A stretch of DNA of 34,052 bases from Thermoplasmata archaeon (lineage in GTDB: Archaea > Thermoplasmatota > UBA186 > UBA287): NCBI GenBank assembly GCA_011620765.1, contig WOYO01000075.1, forward strand, positions 9,793-43,844, read 5' to 3'. Both the position numbers and the translations under genes were made by a program. Shown in pieces: positions 16,550-27,556 of the stretch (the first letter of the stretch is position 1; every line of letters begins with the position of its first letter). Under the pieces are notes generated by a model. That model was not told the DNA's origin. It made no database searches and worked only from the letters and a program-made list of their open reading frames with translations.

Positions 16550-17467
16550 CTATTGCTGGCGCTCAATCGCAAATGAGGTTATCCTTGCTACGAAATCTCT
16601 GTAAGAGATGCCCGCGGCCTTTAGCGCTCTTGCAAAGCCTGAGTCTTTAGGGCTTATGCAGGGATTGGGATTGGCATCTATAACATAAGCCTCTTCGTTA
16701 ACCCTGAGATCTATTCTCCCATAATCCCTTATTCCAAGAGCGCTGTAAGCTTTCAGCGCTTCCCTTTTTATCATCTCTTCCAGCTCTTTATCAAGGATCG
16801 CAGGGCACACTGGTTCTGTTTTTTTATAGCTCTCGCTACCCTCTAACCATTTTGCATCATATGTCAATATTTTATAGGGAGGCTTGAAGAGGATCTCTGA
16901 AAGAGCTATTATCCTGTCGCCAAGGATAGCAGCGCTTATCTCCCTTCCATCTATGTACTCCTCGCATATAGCTTCCTGCTTGTACACTTTCTTTATTTGC
17001 TCTATGACTTTTTCCAGCTCCTCGGAGTTATGAACTATAGAGGAATCATTTATGCCTATGCTTCCATGTTCTTTAGCAGGCTTTACTATCGCAGGGAAAA
17101 TAACTTCTCCAGGCTCCCAGAGCTCTGGCACCCTGAGATCTTTTGTTTTCAGCGCTCTTTTAGTTTCTATCTTGTTGTTGCAGAGCTTTATCACCTCACT
17201 TGTTGAGCCAGTGTAGGGTATATCAAGCATCTCTGGCACTATATGCTCCTCCCCCTCATCACCTATGCCCTCAGCTAGATTGAATGCGACATCAAATGAA
17301 TTGATGTAAGAGAAATCCCAGGAGACCTTTATAGCTTCTGCTCTGTGGCCCAGGGCTTTTAACTCCCCAACCACAGTCATAGCTGTTTCATATGGCTCTT
17401 TCTGCGCTATATACTCTCTTTCATCCCTGAAATGCTCAGGCATGTTATATATAACAGCTACCCTCAT
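16550..17467 (-). CDS. ATP-grasp ligase, D-Ala-D-Ala ligase-like (second copy)
   Basis: DVAFNLAEGIGDEGEEHIVPEMLDIPYTGS; VKPAKEHGSIGI; EEYIDGREISAAILG; YGRIDLRVNEEAYVIDANPNP. Confidence 0.88.
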   Translation of the reverse strand: MRVAVIYNMPEHFRDEREYIAQKEPYETAMTVVGELKALGHRAEAIKVSWDFSYINSFDVAFNLAEGIGDEGEEHIVPEMLDIPYTGSTSEVIKLCNNKIETKRALKTKDLRVPELWEPGEVIFPAIVKPAKEHGSIGINDSSIVHNSEELEKVIEQIKKVYKQEAICEEYIDGREISAAILGDRIIALSEILFKPPYKILTYDAKWLEGSESYKKTEPVCPAILDKELEEMIKREALKAYSALGIRDYGRIDLRVNEEAYVIDANPNPCISPKDSGFARALKAAGISYRDFVARITSFAIERQQ

Positions 17468-18482
17468 ATCTCCTCATGGCTGCATCAATTACTGCCCATA
17501 TGATCTCATCATAGCTCATCCCGGCAGCATAGCATGCTTTTGGAAATCTAGAATTCTCTTCAGGATCTGGAGCTAAACCAGGGAGAGGATTTACATCTAT
17601 AACATTAGGCTCCCCTTTTTCATCAAGACGTACATCTATGCGGCACAGATCTCTGCACCTCAGGGCTCTGAAGGTCTTTATTGCAATATCCTCTAGCGCT
17701 TCCTTTAGCTCTGTGTCTATATGCGCTGGGCAGACAAGCTTATTCTCATCCAAATACCATTTTACCTCAAAGCAGTCAAACCTCTTTTCTTCTGGCAGTG
17801 AAGAGAAGTCAAGCTCTATTATTGGCAGAACTTCAGGCTTATTCCCCAGGAGAGCAACCGTGAACTCTCTTCCATCAAGGAACTCCTCAACAATGAGAGG
17901 CTCCTTTAATTTTTTGATTAACTCTCTGGAAAGCTCTCTCAGCTGATCCTCGCTCTTTACCAGAGATCTCTCACTTATCCCTATGCTCGACCCCTCAAGC
18001 AGTGGCTTGACGAATAGAGGATACCTGAGATCTCCTATCTCTTCTTCACCATTCCATAGCACCTGGAACCTCGGAGTTGGTATGCCATAGTAATGGAGGA
18101 TCTCCTTCGTTCTTGCTTTATCCAGTGCTATTGCCAGTGTTGATGAATCAGAGCCAGTGTAGGGTATACCGAGCATTTCGAGCATCATTGGCACCTGTGA
18201 TTCTCTTGCTCCTTTTCCTGTGCCCTCTGCTATATTGAATACTAGCACCGTTTTCTCTTTCTTTCTTTCCTTGAGCTCCTTCAGCTTCTGAAGGCAATTA
18301 ATATCTGCCTCTATGAGGGTTGTTTCAAAACCTTTTCGTTCTATCGCTCTTTTTATGGCGTATATTGTCTCTGGTTCGTCATACTCTGCGTCCTCCTCGC
18401 TTCTAGCTCCCTTAAGCTGGTTGAACACTATTGCTATGCAGATCCTGCTACGGGTTCCTGTAGGTAAATAATCTTCCTTCAT
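17445..18482 (-). CDS. ATP-grasp ligase, D-Ala-D-Ala ligase-like (first copy)
   Basis: VFNIAEGTGKGARESQVPMMLEMLGIPYTGSD; VKPLLEGSSIGI; EEFLDGREFTVALLG; CRIDVRLDEKGEPNVIDVNPLPGL. Overlaps both neighbours. Confidence 0.9.
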   Translation of the reverse strand: MKEDYLPTGTRSRICIAIVFNQLKGARSEEDAEYDEPETIYAIKRAIERKGFETTLIEADINCLQKLKELKERKKEKTVLVFNIAEGTGKGARESQVPMMLEMLGIPYTGSDSSTLAIALDKARTKEILHYYGIPTPRFQVLWNGEEEIGDLRYPLFVKPLLEGSSIGISERSLVKSEDQLRELSRELIKKLKEPLIVEEFLDGREFTVALLGNKPEVLPIIELDFSSLPEEKRFDCFEVKWYLDENKLVCPAHIDTELKEALEDIAIKTFRALRCRDLCRIDVRLDEKGEPNVIDVNPLPGLAPDPEENSRFPKACYAAGMSYDEIIWAVIDAAMRRYEGSCYI

Positions 18483-21179: not shown

Positions 21180-21869
21180 TCACAGCGCTTCTGGTTTTTC
21201 AAGCAAGCTTTTTACTTCATTTAAAAACTCAGCCGGAGTGCTCGCCAGCACCGCAAAGTGGTCCCAGACCATTGTGAGGTTCATTATCTCTCTCGTTTCT
21301 ATCCTGCCCTCAACCACCCACGGCTTTTCTATAATAGAACACACAATGAGCGAGCTAACAGCATCGCCAGTAAGCAGAGCTGAGGCATTATCTATAATGC
21401 CTAAAGTGCCCACATTTGATATCACAAAAAAGGGCTCTAAGGGAAAGAGCTGTGCCTTCGGCTCTTTCTTTGCCTCTTTTACCCTTTCATTTAACTCTTC
21501 TGCGAACTTAACAATGCTCTTTTTATCAGCGCCATCTATCCACACGCCGTTTGAAAAGTCTCCCACCTGCACGGGAAGGAATATCTTTATGCTCTTTGGT
21601 AGATACACCCGATCAATTCTCTCCAACCATCTCCCTGCCAGTATAAGGTGATGCTCCAGTGCTATCGCTGATGCTCTGACAACCATGGCTGTTATCGTTA
21701 TCTTTTTTTCCTTTTTTGCGAACTTTATCGCTTCAGTCATATCAACGGGCACTGTTAGAGAGCATGAGTAGCTCCTCTCGCAATGTAACAGCTGCCGCAG
21801 GGAGAGCATGAAATCATCAAGCTGGTAGTATGCTCTTCCCTTTTCATCAGTATCGTATATCCTCTGCAT
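21180..21869 (-). CDS. Stand-alone 2-oxoacid dehydrogenase acyltransferase (E2 catalytic / CAT-fold) domain protein, atypical active site
   Basis: EPFFVISNVGTLGIIDNASALL, SSLIVCSIIEKPWVVEGRIETREIMNLTMVWDHFAV; C-terminal DHRxxDG replaced by DHFAVLA; no lipoyl or E1-binding domain. Confidence 0.7.
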   Translation of the reverse strand: MQRIYDTDEKGRAYYQLDDFMLSLRQLLHCERSYSCSLTVPVDMTEAIKFAKKEKKITITAMVVRASAIALEHHLILAGRWLERIDRVYLPKSIKIFLPVQVGDFSNGVWIDGADKKSIVKFAEELNERVKEAKKEPKAQLFPLEPFFVISNVGTLGIIDNASALLTGDAVSSLIVCSIIEKPWVVEGRIETREIMNLTMVWDHFAVLASTPAEFLNEVKSLLEKPEAL

Positions 21870-22182: not shown

Positions 22183-23442
22183 ATGCGCGGGGTTCATGTT
22201 CAACACAATAAATTAAATGAGGCTCTAGCGAGGCCGGCTCTACCACAGCGTGTGATCATTCCACTACATCAGCACACGGGTGCTCCGGCGGAGGCTGTTG
22301 TTCAGAAAGGGGATGAAGTTAAAGCAGGACAGCTTATAGGGCAGGCAAAGGGCTATGTATCAGCGAACATACATGCCAGCATCTGTGGCACTGTAAAGGA
22401 CATAAAGGAATTTTATATACCGACAGGGATAAAGACTAAGTGCGTCGTTATAGAGAGTAATGGAAAAGAAGAAAAGTCGTTCATGGATTCTCTGCCTGAG
22501 AGCGCAGCAAGAGAAGAGCTGCTCGCAAGGATAAAGGATGCGGGCATCGTTGGCATGGGTGGTGCTCAATTTCCAACACATGTGAAGCTGGATGCAAAGA
22601 AGCCAATTGATACACTGATAATAAATGGTTCTGAATGCGAACCTTTCGTTACCAGCGACGATAGACTTATGATAGAGCATATAGACGAAGTCATACAGGG
22701 TGCAAGGATAGCAATGAAGATCCTCGGGGTAAAGAAGGCGATATTTGCGATAGAGAACAATAAGAAAGAGGCTATAGAAAAGGTAAAGCAGGGCGATATC
22801 GAGGTTAGAGTTTTGCGCTCGGTATATCCTCAAGGTGCTGAAAAAACCCTTATTTATAATGTGCTGAAGAGAGTTGTGCCTATGGGCGGTCTGCCTCTTG
22901 ATGTAGGGGTCGTCGTTCATAATGTGGCCACGCTCAAAGCCATAAGGGATGCCTGCTATGAAGGAAAGCCTCTGATAGAGCGGGTTGTTACAGTCACAGG
23001 ATCTGTAAAGGAGCCGAAAAACCTCGTCGTTCCGATAGGCACAGAATTTTCTTATCTCATAGATAACTGTGGAGGCGTGAGCGAAGAGCTTGCTAAAGTG
23101 ATAAATGGCGGTCCCATGATGGGGATAGCACAGCCTTCTCTGGATGTGCCTGTTATAAAGGGGACAAATTGTGTTTTAGCTATGGGCAAAAGCATGGTAA
23201 AGAGGTATGAGGAGAAAGATTGTATACGGTGTTCAAAATGCGTCTCCGTTTGCCCCCAGAACCTTTTGCCAACAACGATAGCACTTTATGCTAAGAATAA
23301 AAAATATGATGAATGTGAGCGTTTAAGCGTGATGAATTGCGTTGAGTGCGGTTGCTGCTCTTACGTTTGTCCTGCCAGGATACCTATAGTTCAATATGCG
23401 AAGCTGGCTAAAGCCGAAGTAATAGCAAAGGGGAGGAGATAA
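22183..23442 (+). CDS. rnfC: Rnf complex subunit RnfC
   Basis: GAPAEAVVQKGDEVKAGQLIG; GMGGAQFPTHVKL; two 4Fe-4S motifs CIRCSKCVSVCP and CVECGCCSYVCP. Confidence 0.96.
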   Translation: MRGVHVQHNKLNEALARPALPQRVIIPLHQHTGAPAEAVVQKGDEVKAGQLIGQAKGYVSANIHASICGTVKDIKEFYIPTGIKTKCVVIESNGKEEKSFMDSLPESAAREELLARIKDAGIVGMGGAQFPTHVKLDAKKPIDTLIINGSECEPFVTSDDRLMIEHIDEVIQGARIAMKILGVKKAIFAIENNKKEAIEKVKQGDIEVRVLRSVYPQGAEKTLIYNVLKRVVPMGGLPLDVGVVVHNVATLKAIRDACYEGKPLIERVVTVTGSVKEPKNLVVPIGTEFSYLIDNCGGVSEELAKVINGGPMMGIAQPSLDVPVIKGTNCVLAMGKSMVKRYEEKDCIRCSKCVSVCPQNLLPTTIALYAKNKKYDECERLSVMNCVECGCCSYVCPARIPIVQYAKLAKAEVIAKGRR

Positions 23443-24419
23443 TGGAAGTAAATGTAAGCCCTCACATCAGGAGCGATTGGGATGTAAGGAAGATAATGTT
23501 ATGCGTTGTTTTGGCGCTTATCCCGAGCGCAATAGCGGGTGTTTACTATTTTGGCTATTATGCGCTTATGATAATCGTGCTGAGCATTTTAAGCGCCCAG
23601 ATAACAGAGCTCATAGGTTTTAAGCTTATGGGTAAGCCTGTAGAGTTTGATGGTAGCGCTATTGTCACAGGACTCATACTTGCGCTCATCCTCCCACCCT
23701 CAGTTCCTCTGTGGATCCCTGTTGTTGGCTCTGCCTTTGCCATAGCATTTTTCAAGCTTCTCTTCGGCGGGCTTGGAAAGAACATATTTAATCCAGCCGC
23801 TGGTGGCAGAGTTTTCCTTCTGCTCTCCTTTGGTGCTGTAATGACGTCTTTCCCTGCTCCGCGTGGGCAGAGCGCAGCAGCATCTACAGCAGCATCTACA
23901 GCAGCTACCACGGCAGCCACTACCGCGGCCACCACAGCAGCAAGCCCCTTAGCCTCTAGCGCTGCATATAGCTACATGGATCTTTTCCTTGGTAGGATAC
24001 CGGGAAGCCTTGGTGAAACGTGCAAGCTTGCAATACTGATAGGAGGCATTATCCTTATAGCTTTAGGTTTAATAGACTACATGGTGCCTCTTGTTTATGC
24101 ACTTACATGCATTATAATATCTTTTGCTGCTGGGGCAGATCCCCTATACCATCTGCTCTCTGGGGGTTTGCTCTTTGCTGCCTTCTTTATGGCTACGGAT
24201 TATGTGACAACGCCAATAACCAGAGAAGGGAGGATAGTGTTCGCTATAGGTTTGGGCATTCTCACGATGGCCACAAGGCTTTTAACAGGAGTTGAGAGCA
24301 TATCCTATATGATTCTGTTCATGAACGGTCTTGTGCCCATAATAGATCGCTTCATCATTCCGAGATCTTTTGGGGAACCGAAAAAAGTAAAGGTAGGAGG
24401 AAAGAAAAATGAGCAATGA
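23442..24419 (+). CDS. rnfD: Rnf complex subunit RnfD
   Basis: NqrB/RnfD family: GLILALILPPSVPLWIPVVGSAFAIAFFKLLFGGLGKNIFNPA; MATDYVTTPIT; in operon. Confidence 0.95.
   Translation: MEVNVSPHIRSDWDVRKIMLCVVLALIPSAIAGVYYFGYYALMIIVLSILSAQITELIGFKLMGKPVEFDGSAIVTGLILALILPPSVPLWIPVVGSAFAIAFFKLLFGGLGKNIFNPAAGGRVFLLLSFGAVMTSFPAPRGQSAAASTAASTAATTAATTAATTAASPLASSAAYSYMDLFLGRIPGSLGETCKLAILIGGIILIALGLIDYMVPLVYALTCIIISFAAGADPLYHLLSGGLLFAAFFMATDYVTTPITREGRIVFAIGLGILTMATRLLTGVESISYMILFMNGLVPIIDRFIIPRSFGEPKKVKVGGKKNEQ
23877..23942 (+). repeat. 12-bp in-frame tandem repeat encoding AA(S/T)T x5 plus a partial unit, inside rnfD
   Basis: Protein AASTAASTAATTAATTAATTAASPL; units gcagcatctaca, gcagcatctaca, gcagctaccacg, gcagccactacc, gcggccaccaca, gcagca(agcccc). 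Confidence 0.9.
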
Positions 24420-25098
24420 AAAAGTGAACCTTTGGGATGAGTTTTTCAAGGGCATAGGCAGGATGAATCCTGTCTATATCCTCTTGCTTGGACTGTGCTC
24501 TGCTCTAGCAATAACAACAAGGATAGAAAATGCGATAGTTATGAGCGTTGGCGTTATCTTCTGTCTTGTATGCTCTACTGTTATAATATCTATAGTAAGG
24601 GCTGTTGTTCCAGGAGATGTCAGGATACCCGTCTTCATATCAATCATTGCAGGTTTTGTCACTCTCTTTGGCTTCTTTACCCAGGCTTATCTGCCTACGG
24701 TATACAGTGCTCTTGGAGTCTATCTGGCTCTCATAACAACCAATTGCATACTCTATGGCAGGGCAGAGGCATACGCTGGAAAAAATCCGATCCTGCCTAC
24801 GCTTATGGATGGCCTCGGTATGGGAGCGGGTTACTCTCTAGCAATAATCGGGATAGCTGTGGTTAGAGAGATCCTTGGCTTTGGAGAGATAGTGTTTCAG
24901 GATCTCGCCCAATTTGAAATAACTGTGCTCCCATTTCAGGTTGGCATCCTGCAGCAGTCTGCGGGAGCATACATTGTTATGGCAGGATACCTTGGATTTT
25001 TCATGTATCTTTCAAAAAGGAAGGAGAGAAAGAGGAAAGAAGCGATATCTCTGGAGAGAAAGAGGATGATGGAAGAGCGAACTAGGGAGGTGAGCTGA
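24409..25098 (+). CDS. rnfE: Rnf complex subunit RnfE
   Basis: NqrD/RnfE family: MNPVYILLLGLCSALAITTRIENAIVMS; NCILYGRAEAYAGKNPILPTLMDGLGMGAGYSLAI. Confidence 0.94.
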   Translation: MSNEKVNLWDEFFKGIGRMNPVYILLLGLCSALAITTRIENAIVMSVGVIFCLVCSTVIISIVRAVVPGDVRIPVFISIIAGFVTLFGFFTQAYLPTVYSALGVYLALITTNCILYGRAEAYAGKNPILPTLMDGLGMGAGYSLAIIGIAVVREILGFGEIVFQDLAQFEITVLPFQVGILQQSAGAYIVMAGYLGFFMYLSKRKERKRKEAISLERKRMMEERTREVS

Positions 25099-25679
25099 TG
25101 GTTGAAGAAAGTCTTGTAGCGCTAGCGATAGGTGCAGTGCTTGTCAACAACTTTGTGTTTGTTCGATTTCTGGGGCTTTGCCCATTCTTCGGTACATCAA
25201 ACAACTGGAGTAACTCTATGGGCATGGGACTAATGGTTATATTCGTTATGACATGCTCTTCTGTGCTCTCATGGGTCATAGACGCTTTCGTGCTGATACC
25301 TTTGGATGCAACCTATCTGAGAATAATGGTATTCATCTTCATAATTGCAGTTTTCGTACAGTTGACAGAGCTTATAATAAGGAAATATAGTCCCTCGCTC
25401 TACAAGTCTCTGGGCATATTCCTTCCCTTAATGGTGGTAAACTGTGCTATACTGGGTATAACGCTGATAAATGCCGGGGAGGGTTATGCTTTTCCAGCAG
25501 CACTAGTGAGTGGTTTCTTTTCTGGCGTGGGTTTCTGGTTTGCTATGCTGCTCATGGCTGCAGTTAGAGAAAAACTTGAGCTCGTTGGAGTGCCAGAATC
25601 CCTCAGAGGCATACCTATAGCTATAGTGGTGGCTGCAGGATACTCTATGGCTTTCAGAGCATTTGCTGGTCTGGTGTAG
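25098..25679 (+). CDS. rnfA: Rnf complex subunit RnfA
   Basis: NqrE/RnfA family: ALAIGAVLVNNFVFVRFLGLCPFFGTSNNWSNSMGMGLMVIFVM; VNCAILGITLINAGEGY. Confidence 0.95.
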   Translation: MVEESLVALAIGAVLVNNFVFVRFLGLCPFFGTSNNWSNSMGMGLMVIFVMTCSSVLSWVIDAFVLIPLDATYLRIMVFIFIIAVFVQLTELIIRKYSPSLYKSLGIFLPLMVVNCAILGITLINAGEGYAFPAALVSGFFSGVGFWFAMLLMAAVREKLELVGVPESLRGIPIAIVVAAGYSMAFRAFAGLV

Positions 25680-26258
25680 GTGATAGAGATGAGAAATGAT
25701 GTGAAAAATATGGTAAAGAACACGCTGGTGGTATTCATAACGGTCTTTGTCTTCTCCCTTATTCTGGCTGAGACCTATCAAATGCTCATAGTACCCATAG
25801 AAAAGGAGAGGGCTGCGACGGAGACAAACTACTTTGCAGATCTGTTTGAAGGAGCAACCTTCAACAAGAATAGCGTAAGCTACGAGGGAAAAGATGTTGA
25901 GTTCTGGGAAGCTTTGGAGGGGGGAGAACTGGCAGGCTATGTGGGTAAGGTGAACACAACGGGATCTCAGACAGCAGGCTCGAATCCTCTCATAGCATAT
26001 GTGGCCCTTGATGGAGATCTAGAGGTTATCAGAGTTATAGTGCCTGATGATCTTCTGATGGAGACCCCTGGTCTGGGATCAAGGATAGCTGAAGAGCAAT
26101 TTCTTCAGCGGTTTGAAGGTTTAAGCGCTGAAGAGATAGCCCTCAGCTCTGAGGGCGGTAGCATAGATGCGATAACCGGGGCAACACAGAGCTCTGCGGC
26201 CCTGACAGAGGGCGTCAGGCTCGTTGTTGAGGCTCTTTCTGAGGAGGTTGGAGCATGA
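25680..26258 (+). CDS. rnfG: Rnf complex subunit RnfG (FMN-binding); ATG start probably 25689
   Basis: N-terminal TM; FMN_bind domain with ETPGLGSRIAEEQFLQRF and DAITGATQSS flavinylation motif. Confidence 0.92.
   Translation: MIEMRNDVKNMVKNTLVVFITVFVFSLILAETYQMLIVPIEKERAATETNYFADLFEGATFNKNSVSYEGKDVEFWEALEGGELAGYVGKVNTTGSQTAGSNPLIAYVALDGDLEVIRVIVPDDLLMETPGLGSRIAEEQFLQRFEGLSAEEIALSSEGGSIDAITGATQSSAALTEGVRLVVEALSEEVGA
26111..26170 (+). repeat. 60-bp direct repeat copy 1 (in rnfG)
   Basis: gtttgaaggtttaagcgctgaagagatagccctcagctctgagggcggtagcatagatgc; differs from copy 2 at one base (26156). Confidence 0.97.
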
Positions 26259-27556
26259 GCAGTAAGTTTATACTGTTTCTTTTGCTGTTCTCACTTCTCG
26301 TGCCAGCAGTTATAGCGCAGTCCCAGGAATTGCCCCAGGAGCTAAATGCGTTATATCCTCAAGCAACTGCGGTAGAAGCAGAGAACATAACATACTGGAG
26401 GATAGACGGAGCCGATGACGCAAGATATATAGGACTGCTCTCCGCTAGAGGGATGGAAGGAGAGATAAAAGGATATGTCGTGCTGGATGAGGACTTTAAA
26501 ATTGTGAATGTAATGATAACAGAGCAGCATGAGACTCCCGGGCTTGGATCGAGGATAACGGAGGAACAATTTCTCCAGCAGTTTGAAGGTTTAAGCGCTG
26601 AAGAGATAGCCCTCAGCTCTGAGGGTGGTAGCATAGATGCTATTACCTATGCAACCATAAGCTCCTCTGCTGTGGTTACTGGCGTGAATGATACAATAGA
26701 TGCAATAAAGAGCGCTGAGAGCGCTGGCGGCTTTGGCTATCTGACGGTTGTTGGTGTTTTTGGTCTCATAGCAATAGCTTTTGGTATTGGTTTGAGCGTT
26801 GCTGCCACAAAATTTGCTGTCCAGAGAGACGAGAGGGTTAACAAGGTCTTTGAGCTCCTTCCGCACCAGAACTGCGGTGCATGTGGTTTTGCGGGGTGCG
26901 AGGCTTACGCAGAGGCTCTTGTTGAAAAGCCCGATCTCCTGGGGAGCTGCAGGATAACTCCAAATAGCGCTGCCAAAGAGATAGCACAGATCCTTGGAAC
27001 AGAGGCAGGTGCGAATCTTCCAATGGTTGCGCAGATGAAGTGCGGTGATGGATGCAAGCCAAAATATGAGTATAGTGGTATCAAAACGTGCAAGGCCGCG
27101 GCTCAGGTTGTGAATGGACCCTTGATGTGCGATTATGGTTGTCTGGGCTTTGGCGATTGCATAGAGAAGTGCAAGTTTGATGCGATGTTCATAAATGAAC
27201 TGGGCATAGTGGAGATAGATGAGGAGCGCTGCACGGGTTGCGGCGCATGTGTGCCTGCATGCCCCAAGAATCTCATATCTCTATTTGAGAGGGACTATAA
27301 GGTTATGATAAAGTGCAGCTCTAAGGATATAGGTGTCTTTGTTACCCGCAACTGTGAGAATGGGTGCAATGCATGCAGGAGATGCGTCAAAGCCTGCGAG
27401 AACCATGGTGCGAATGCGATCACAATAGTTGATTACCTTGCTGTGATAGATTACTCAAAGTGCGACAGCTGCTATGATTGTGTAGCAGTGTGCCCACGTG
27501 GTGGTGGAGGAACTATTAAGAAGATAAACCAGATCAAAAAGATGGTTGAAGCATAG
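26255..27556 (+). CDS. rnfB: Fusion protein: secreted/anchored RnfG-like FMN_bind domain, TM segment, RnfB ferredoxin subunit
   Basis: Signal peptide, HETPGLGSRITEEQFLQQF...SIDAITYATISSS (RnfG-like), TM, then RnfB PHQNCGACGFAGCEAYAEAL and several CxxCxxCxxxC(P) motifs. Confidence 0.92.
   Translation: MSSKFILFLLLFSLLVPAVIAQSQELPQELNALYPQATAVEAENITYWRIDGADDARYIGLLSARGMEGEIKGYVVLDEDFKIVNVMITEQHETPGLGSRITEEQFLQQFEGLSAEEIALSSEGGSIDAITYATISSSAVVTGVNDTIDAIKSAESAGGFGYLTVVGVFGLIAIAFGIGLSVAATKFAVQRDERVNKVFELLPHQNCGACGFAGCEAYAEALVEKPDLLGSCRITPNSAAKEIAQILGTEAGANLPMVAQMKCGDGCKPKYEYSGIKTCKAAAQVVNGPLMCDYGCLGFGDCIEKCKFDAMFINELGIVEIDEERCTGCGACVPACPKNLISLFERDYKVMIKCSSKDIGVFVTRNCENGCNACRRCVKACENHGANAITIVDYLAVIDYSKCDSCYDCVAVCPRGGGGTIKKINQIKKMVEA
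26581..26640 (+). repeat. 60-bp direct repeat copy 2 (in the RnfG-like domain of the rnfB fusion)
   Basis: Same 60-mer with t at 26626 instead of c; offset 470 bp. Confidence 0.97.

Follow-up and report, generated by a model that had tools for sequence, protein, structure and literature searches.

An RnfG-like FMN_bind domain fused to RnfB in an archaeal Rnf operon

The 34 052 bp stretch of Thermoplasmata DNA analysed here (the window) contains an operon for Rnf, a membrane electron pump, in which RnfB, the subunit that receives electrons from the cell interior, carries an additional, RnfG-like FMN_bind domain at its N-terminus. The fused gene (26255–27556, forward strand, as are all operon features below) is an uninterrupted 433 aa ORF with no stops, and a second copy was found in a congener (L036:7333–8113). 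The original prediction, made from the sequence alone, read the last gene of the operon as a signal peptide followed by an FMN_bind domain, a single transmembrane (TM) helix and RnfB. The ORF and its Pfam and NCBIfam matches agree with this architecture, and an AlphaFold2 model was also obtained.

The predicted signal peptide (residues 1–21, 26255–26317, MSSKFILFLLLFSLLVPAVIA; read from the sequence, with cleavage possible after VIA) aligns where RnfG has its own TM helix. The FMN_bind domain (PF04205, residues 66–148, 26450–26698) scores 56.5 bits against a Pfam cut-off of 22. It includes an intact ETPGLG flavin-pocket motif (residues 93–98, 26531–26548), identified in alignments, and the flavinylation motif DAITYAT (residues 128–134, 26636–26656), in which Tyr occupies the usual Gly position and the acceptor, Thr134, is kept. 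The RnfB TM helix (residues ~161–186, 26735–26812) is helical at 161–186 in the AlphaFold2 model and corresponds in alignments to the TM helix at the N-terminus of canonical RnfB. It is followed by the iron-sulphur region (26858–27502), with PF04060 at residues 202–232 and 4Fe-4S repeats to ~416. Pfam FeS and several 4Fe-4S models match within residues 202–416, and the NCBIfam result, alignment and structural match concur.

Assessed as RnfB, the protein has the TM helix followed by FeS/4Fe-4S motifs and passes the cut-off of TIGR01944 (79.6 versus 68.7 bits). It departs from the usual, though not strictly defining, short stretch before the TM helix, which is here preceded by ~160 residues that include the signal peptide and FMN_bind domain. 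Assessed as an RnfG subunit it fails, with the signal peptide replacing the N-terminal TM anchor and a TIGR01947 score of 70.1 bits against a cut-off of 102, though this model discriminates poorly, as the stand-alone RnfG of the operon is also below the cut-off (49 bits). The rnfG_Methano model of NCBIfam gives 89 bits for the N-terminal part of the fusion and 70.6 for the stand-alone RnfG. No in-frame ATG, GTG or TTG could be read just 5′ of the RnfB TM helix in the fused gene, which makes it unlikely that RnfB is also translated from a start of its own at this point. From the order of signal peptide and TM helix, and the precedent of RnfB and RnfG (PMC4023990, PMC9588780), we infer that the protein spans the membrane with FMN_bind outside and the Fe-S part inside.

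All six Rnf subunits are encoded within the one operon (Pfam and NCBIfam). Upstream of the fused gene are rnfC (22183–23442; TIGR01945, 515.5 bits; Complex1_51K and 4Fe-4S in Pfam), rnfD (23442–24419; PF03116, 322.9 bits), rnfE (24409–25098; NF009070 RsxE, above cut-off), rnfA (25098–25679; best model TIGR01943 at 219 bits, cut-off 229; Rnf-Nqr in Pfam) and rnfG (25680–26258), a stand-alone paralogue of the fused domain recognized from its ORF, Pfam and the tree described below. This rnfG is itself an FMN_bind gene (33.4 bits in Pfam), so the operon does contain two FMN_bind modules, as had been predicted. Its product is a putative Rnf complex, with ferredoxin:NAD+ oxidoreductase activity coupled to ion pumping as the defining activity. 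Within rnfD, a 12 nt tandem repeat (23875–23943) is located at the flavinylation site, where the window RnfD reads AATTAAS-PL versus D-x-x-[ST]-x-A-T-PL in most RnfD; the motif lacks the Asp, and Ser would serve as acceptor. RnfD of the congener reads DAVTAAS at this site.

The class was compared through three genomes, namely the window genome, the congener (G001) and a class-mate (G002). Gene order is C-D-E-A-G-[G′B] in the window and the congener, which also share an ATGA overlap between rnfG and the fused gene, whereas the class-mate has the usual order, C-D-G-E-A-B, and a plain 261 aa RnfB. Among the other operons compared in which rnfG could be recognized next to its neighbours, the gene occupies the rnfD–rnfE interval; the exception is L082, where a cut RnfG-type frame is found 5′ of rnfD. 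In none of the other operons compared does rnfG adjoin rnfB. We conclude that rnfG moved from the rnfD–rnfE interval to beside rnfB in the fusion lineage.

Other genes in the window were also recorded. Directly 3′ of the fused gene, on the same strand, is a gene with a Flavin_Reduct domain (PF01613; 27601–28155). Read from the sequence, a pair of overlapping minus-strand genes (16550–18482) resembles D-Ala-D-Ala ligase/ATP-grasp proteins, and neighbouring RadA-, Mre11/Rad50-, aIF2-gamma- and S6e-like genes are archaeal in character. A 229 aa 2-oxoacid dehydrogenase acyltransferase catalytic domain stands alone, without a lipoyl domain, at 21180–21869.

The congener copy is 75% identical to that in the window, Tyr included, and ends with its contig at about residue 260. 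As it is on an independent contig, the frameshift or assembly artefact that the original prediction had allowed for does not account for the fusion. In the 390 genomes of the phylum surveyed, RnfB was matched in 14, and fused only in the window genome and the congener. RnfB was matched in 180 of 349 Bacillota genomes, with no fusion among the matches listed; the few of these that start before residue 150 contain internal stops and are not fusions. At a strict threshold, none of the strong RnfB matches in 237 Omnitrophota (10 matches) or 246 Planctomycetota (19 matches) genomes was fused, and both matches in 236 genomes from the phylum of L057 were unfused. In 349 Pseudomonadota genomes there was no match at 1e-56, a threshold that makes absence say little. 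A set of 80 loci contained no further RnfG–RnfB fusion. L073, L092 and L132 gave matches from query residue 77 or 96 through to 415 that suggested further fusions, but were rejected because the alignments cross a stop into rnfA. The phyla named for these surveys are taken from the record titles of the centre loci. Thus, in these surveys, which left out Methanosarcinales and other Halobacteriota, the search for other fusions yielded that of the congener and none elsewhere in the surveyed genomes or listed matches. Every other RnfB examined was unfused, in line with the earlier description of canonical RnfB as having only a short N-terminal TM anchor.

In a tree of 74 RnfG-type domains, the two RnfG and two fused domains of the window genome and congener form one clade (100/98), within which the RnfG pair and the fused-domain pair separate (100/98 and 100/99). 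This topology places the duplication before the split of the two species. The sequences therefore identify the fused domain and the operon's rnfG as paralogues that arose by duplication in the genus ancestor; the duplication was not seen outside the genus.

Overall, rnfG and the fused domain are only 46% identical, but they share a segment in which 108/125 nt are identical, including an exact 45 nt run (26111–26155 in rnfG, 26581–26625 in the fused gene). The longest exact run between the two copies in the congener is 11 nt. In a null model, the amino acid identities were held fixed and codons were taken from the other comparisons; the observed segment score was reached in 14 of 20 000 draws, a test at the codon level only and from a small pool. 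The segment, which lies between the pocket and flavinylation motifs and stops just short of the Tyr/Gly codon, was apparently homogenized recently by gene conversion, and either copy could have been the donor. At the end of the tract in rnfG (26139–26156) there is a perfect 18 nt inverted repeat, GCCCTCAGCTCTGAGGGC, with an AG/CT centre, which is one base off in the fused copy. This repeat may have favoured the conversion event.

The fused domain is predicted to have the RnfG/NqrC fold. The AlphaFold2 model of the N-terminal 171 residues has a mean pLDDT of 89, with the core >90, and when it was used in a Foldseek search the first match was RnfG of C. tetanomorphum (7zc6_G), followed by RnfG/NqrC entries including 8rb9_G and 8ahx_G. 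At E≤0.001, 21/21 PDB matches are to RnfG, NqrC or the related CbFMN4 domain. Hence the region called FMN_bind by Pfam also models as such. The full-chain match is modest (TM-scores 0.5–0.6, rmsd 7–8 Å), which we think stems from differing TM and linker helices. A full-length AlphaFold2 model built with RnfB rows only has pLDDT <50 at residues 124–134, and is therefore uninformative on the flavinylation motif. A mixed RnfG and RnfB alignment was dropped as folding input because the families were misaligned.

The flavinylation motif is DAITYATISS in the fusion versus DAITGATQSS in RnfG. The consensus is given as D-x-x-[S/T]-G-A-[S/T], with Gly (PMC12052999), and the fused domain departs from it at the one position, the rest fitting; the acceptor Thr and the Ser two residues further on are retained. 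Tyr is found at the Gly position in both fusion species, whereas the other 44 RnfG rows in the alignment have only G, A or S (A in Bacteroidota RnfG). The congener's stand-alone RnfG (L036:6767–7336) reads DAITSAT, with Ser at this position. RnfD is likewise a target of ApbE, though its motif lies in a structural context that differs from that in RnfG; RnfD motifs have G, A, S, T, Q or E at the equivalent residue, and Y in a single case (VDVVTYPT in L060). Replacing Gly with Ala only about halved flavinylation of a K. pneumoniae test protein (PMC12052999). The earlier observation of the Tyr stands, and the residue is conserved in the congener, but the proposal that it points to non-covalent FMN binding draws little support from a site where Thr is kept, Gly to Ala only halves flavinylation and the RnfD position is so varied. 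With the acceptor Thr retained, Ser in the congener RnfG and variation in RnfD, the motif comparison indicates that Tyr alone is no argument against covalent FMN. An ApbE is encoded in the window genome. Covalent FMN on the fused domain seems somewhat likelier than its absence.

Building on this fusion, paralogy, selection (see below), homogenization and predicted fold, we favour, with somewhat better than even confidence, a history of duplication and fusion that has made the fused domain a working second flavin module on the outer face, over RnfA/E and anchored by the RnfB helix. After rnfG was duplicated in the genus ancestor, the pair would have come to sit directly 5′ of rnfB, and the second copy would have lost its own TM anchor, where there is now a signal peptide, and been fused in frame to RnfB. 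ApbE probably links FMN to Thr134, and Tyr may reduce the yield. In C. tetanomorphum Rnf, the RnfB and RnfG helices are bundled with a single helix from RnfA and another from RnfE, four in all (PMC9588780). Because the RnfB helix packs with those of RnfG, RnfA and RnfE in solved Rnf, the added domain, carried on the outer end of that helix, would be expected close to the RnfA/E metal site, on its outer side. There it could take electrons leaving A/E; we favour a relay onward to RnfG or RnfD over delivery to a different outer acceptor or a flavin-free dock. Flavinylation could nevertheless fail, as the Tyr is unique among aligned RnfG and the consensus has Gly, and the fusion is known from two genomes only, in one of which the gene is cut at the contig end.

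In its swing between A/E and D, RnfG covers about 35 Å (PMC12174285). More tentatively, the complex may have two outer flavin carriers, of which the one fixed to RnfB stays at the RnfA/E exit and feeds RnfG docked at RnfD, such that a two-flavin relay replaces the long RnfG swing. That same swing is compatible with a further reading, which we consider unlikely, that Tyr leaves the fused domain without flavin. The domain would then be retained for a structural or gating role, docking at RnfA/E or RnfD in the manner of RnfG and either restricting how far the real RnfG can swing or stabilizing RnfB. The restriction of Tyr to the two fusion species is consistent with this, as is the behaviour of NqrC, which requires covalent attachment for FMN binding and binds free FMN only very weakly (PMC4348036). 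However, the acceptor Thr, the Ser two residues on, the full ETPGLG, which lines the flavin pocket in NqrC (PMC4348036), and a homogenized pocket segment would all be superfluous without flavin, and RnfD motifs accept many residues, Tyr included, at that position.

Less probable still is that the fused domain opens a side branch through which electrons exit on the outer face to an extracytosolic acceptor, such as a putative lipoprotein with two FMN_bind domains. A bifurcated outflow of this kind has been proposed for bacterial multi-flavinylated RnfG (PMC8238504). The genome does encode a 248 aa protein with two FMN_bind domains (L043:3116–3862), and the congener has a similar two-domain frame. 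However, no obvious redox genes adjoin the lipoprotein gene, which is on a different contig, and RnfC retains its 51K-type and 4Fe-4S domains, such that the usual return path appears intact. A search for multihaem families found none, but was so insensitive that its control missed M. acetivorans. The L043 protein (G000 contig C71) has two DAVTGAT motifs and an apparent lipobox, its nearest solved relatives are 2kzx and 3o6u, and from its sequence it is a possible outer flavin carrier.

Between the window genome and the congener, the fused domain and rnfA each have a dN/dS of 0.092 and the soluble part of rnfG one of 0.094, ratios that are rough because dS is near saturation. The fused domain is about 70% identical between the two species and is under purifying selection, so it probably does something. 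The suggestion that the domain might be vestigial was not supported, with dN/dS of about 0.09, ETPGLG and Thr intact, and a pocket segment homogenized with rnfG. A vestigial duplicate tethered to RnfB by chance might be expected from the off-consensus motif and the few carriers, but is very improbable given a dN/dS equal to those of rnfG and rnfA and an intact pocket conserved across species. An assembly chimera formed at the 45 nt repeat, exact in both genes, can be dismissed almost entirely, as the congener shares the arrangement on a contig of its own, where the longest run common to the two copies is 11 nt. Of the remodelled archaeal Rnf originally envisaged, what remains after removing 'vestigial' is a real, conserved, lineage-specific RnfG-like addition to RnfB.

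Like canonical RnfB (C. tetanomorphum 7zc6_B, A. woodii 9eri_B, Methanosarcina NF041836), the fusion has a TM helix and cytosolic Fe-S domains, and its RnfB part is 40–44% identical to solved RnfB chains in the structural match. Unlike it, canonical RnfB starts at the TM helix, and the 265 positions of NF041836 include no FMN_bind part. The fused domain shares with RnfG/NqrC (PF04205) the predicted fold, the ETPGLG pocket motif and the acceptor Thr, but lacks the N-terminal TM anchor, is tethered to RnfB at its C-terminus and has Tyr in its motif. Rnf operons with more than one FMN_bind domain are already known from multi-flavinylated RnfG and other multi-FMN proteins, though the passages of PMC8238504 considered place the extra domains within RnfG and describe none on RnfB. 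The open-access literature searched contained no description of an FMN_bind domain on RnfB. Mechanistic work on Rnf and NQR has yet to settle the mobility of RnfG/NqrC between RnfA/E and RnfD (PMC12174285). Whether the swing is obligatory could be tested in a natural Rnf such as this, in which a second RnfG-like domain is anchored via RnfB. The case is also a clear example of an energy-converting complex remodelled via duplication, fusion and apparent gene conversion. These three processes are already known together for mtrA-1/mtrA-2 of methanogens (PMC4632066), where a duplication within the operon was likewise followed by fusion of the second copy to a different TM segment, and the soluble domains were homogenized by gene conversion. 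As mtrA belongs to an unrelated methyltransferase complex, the parallel is in evolution only.
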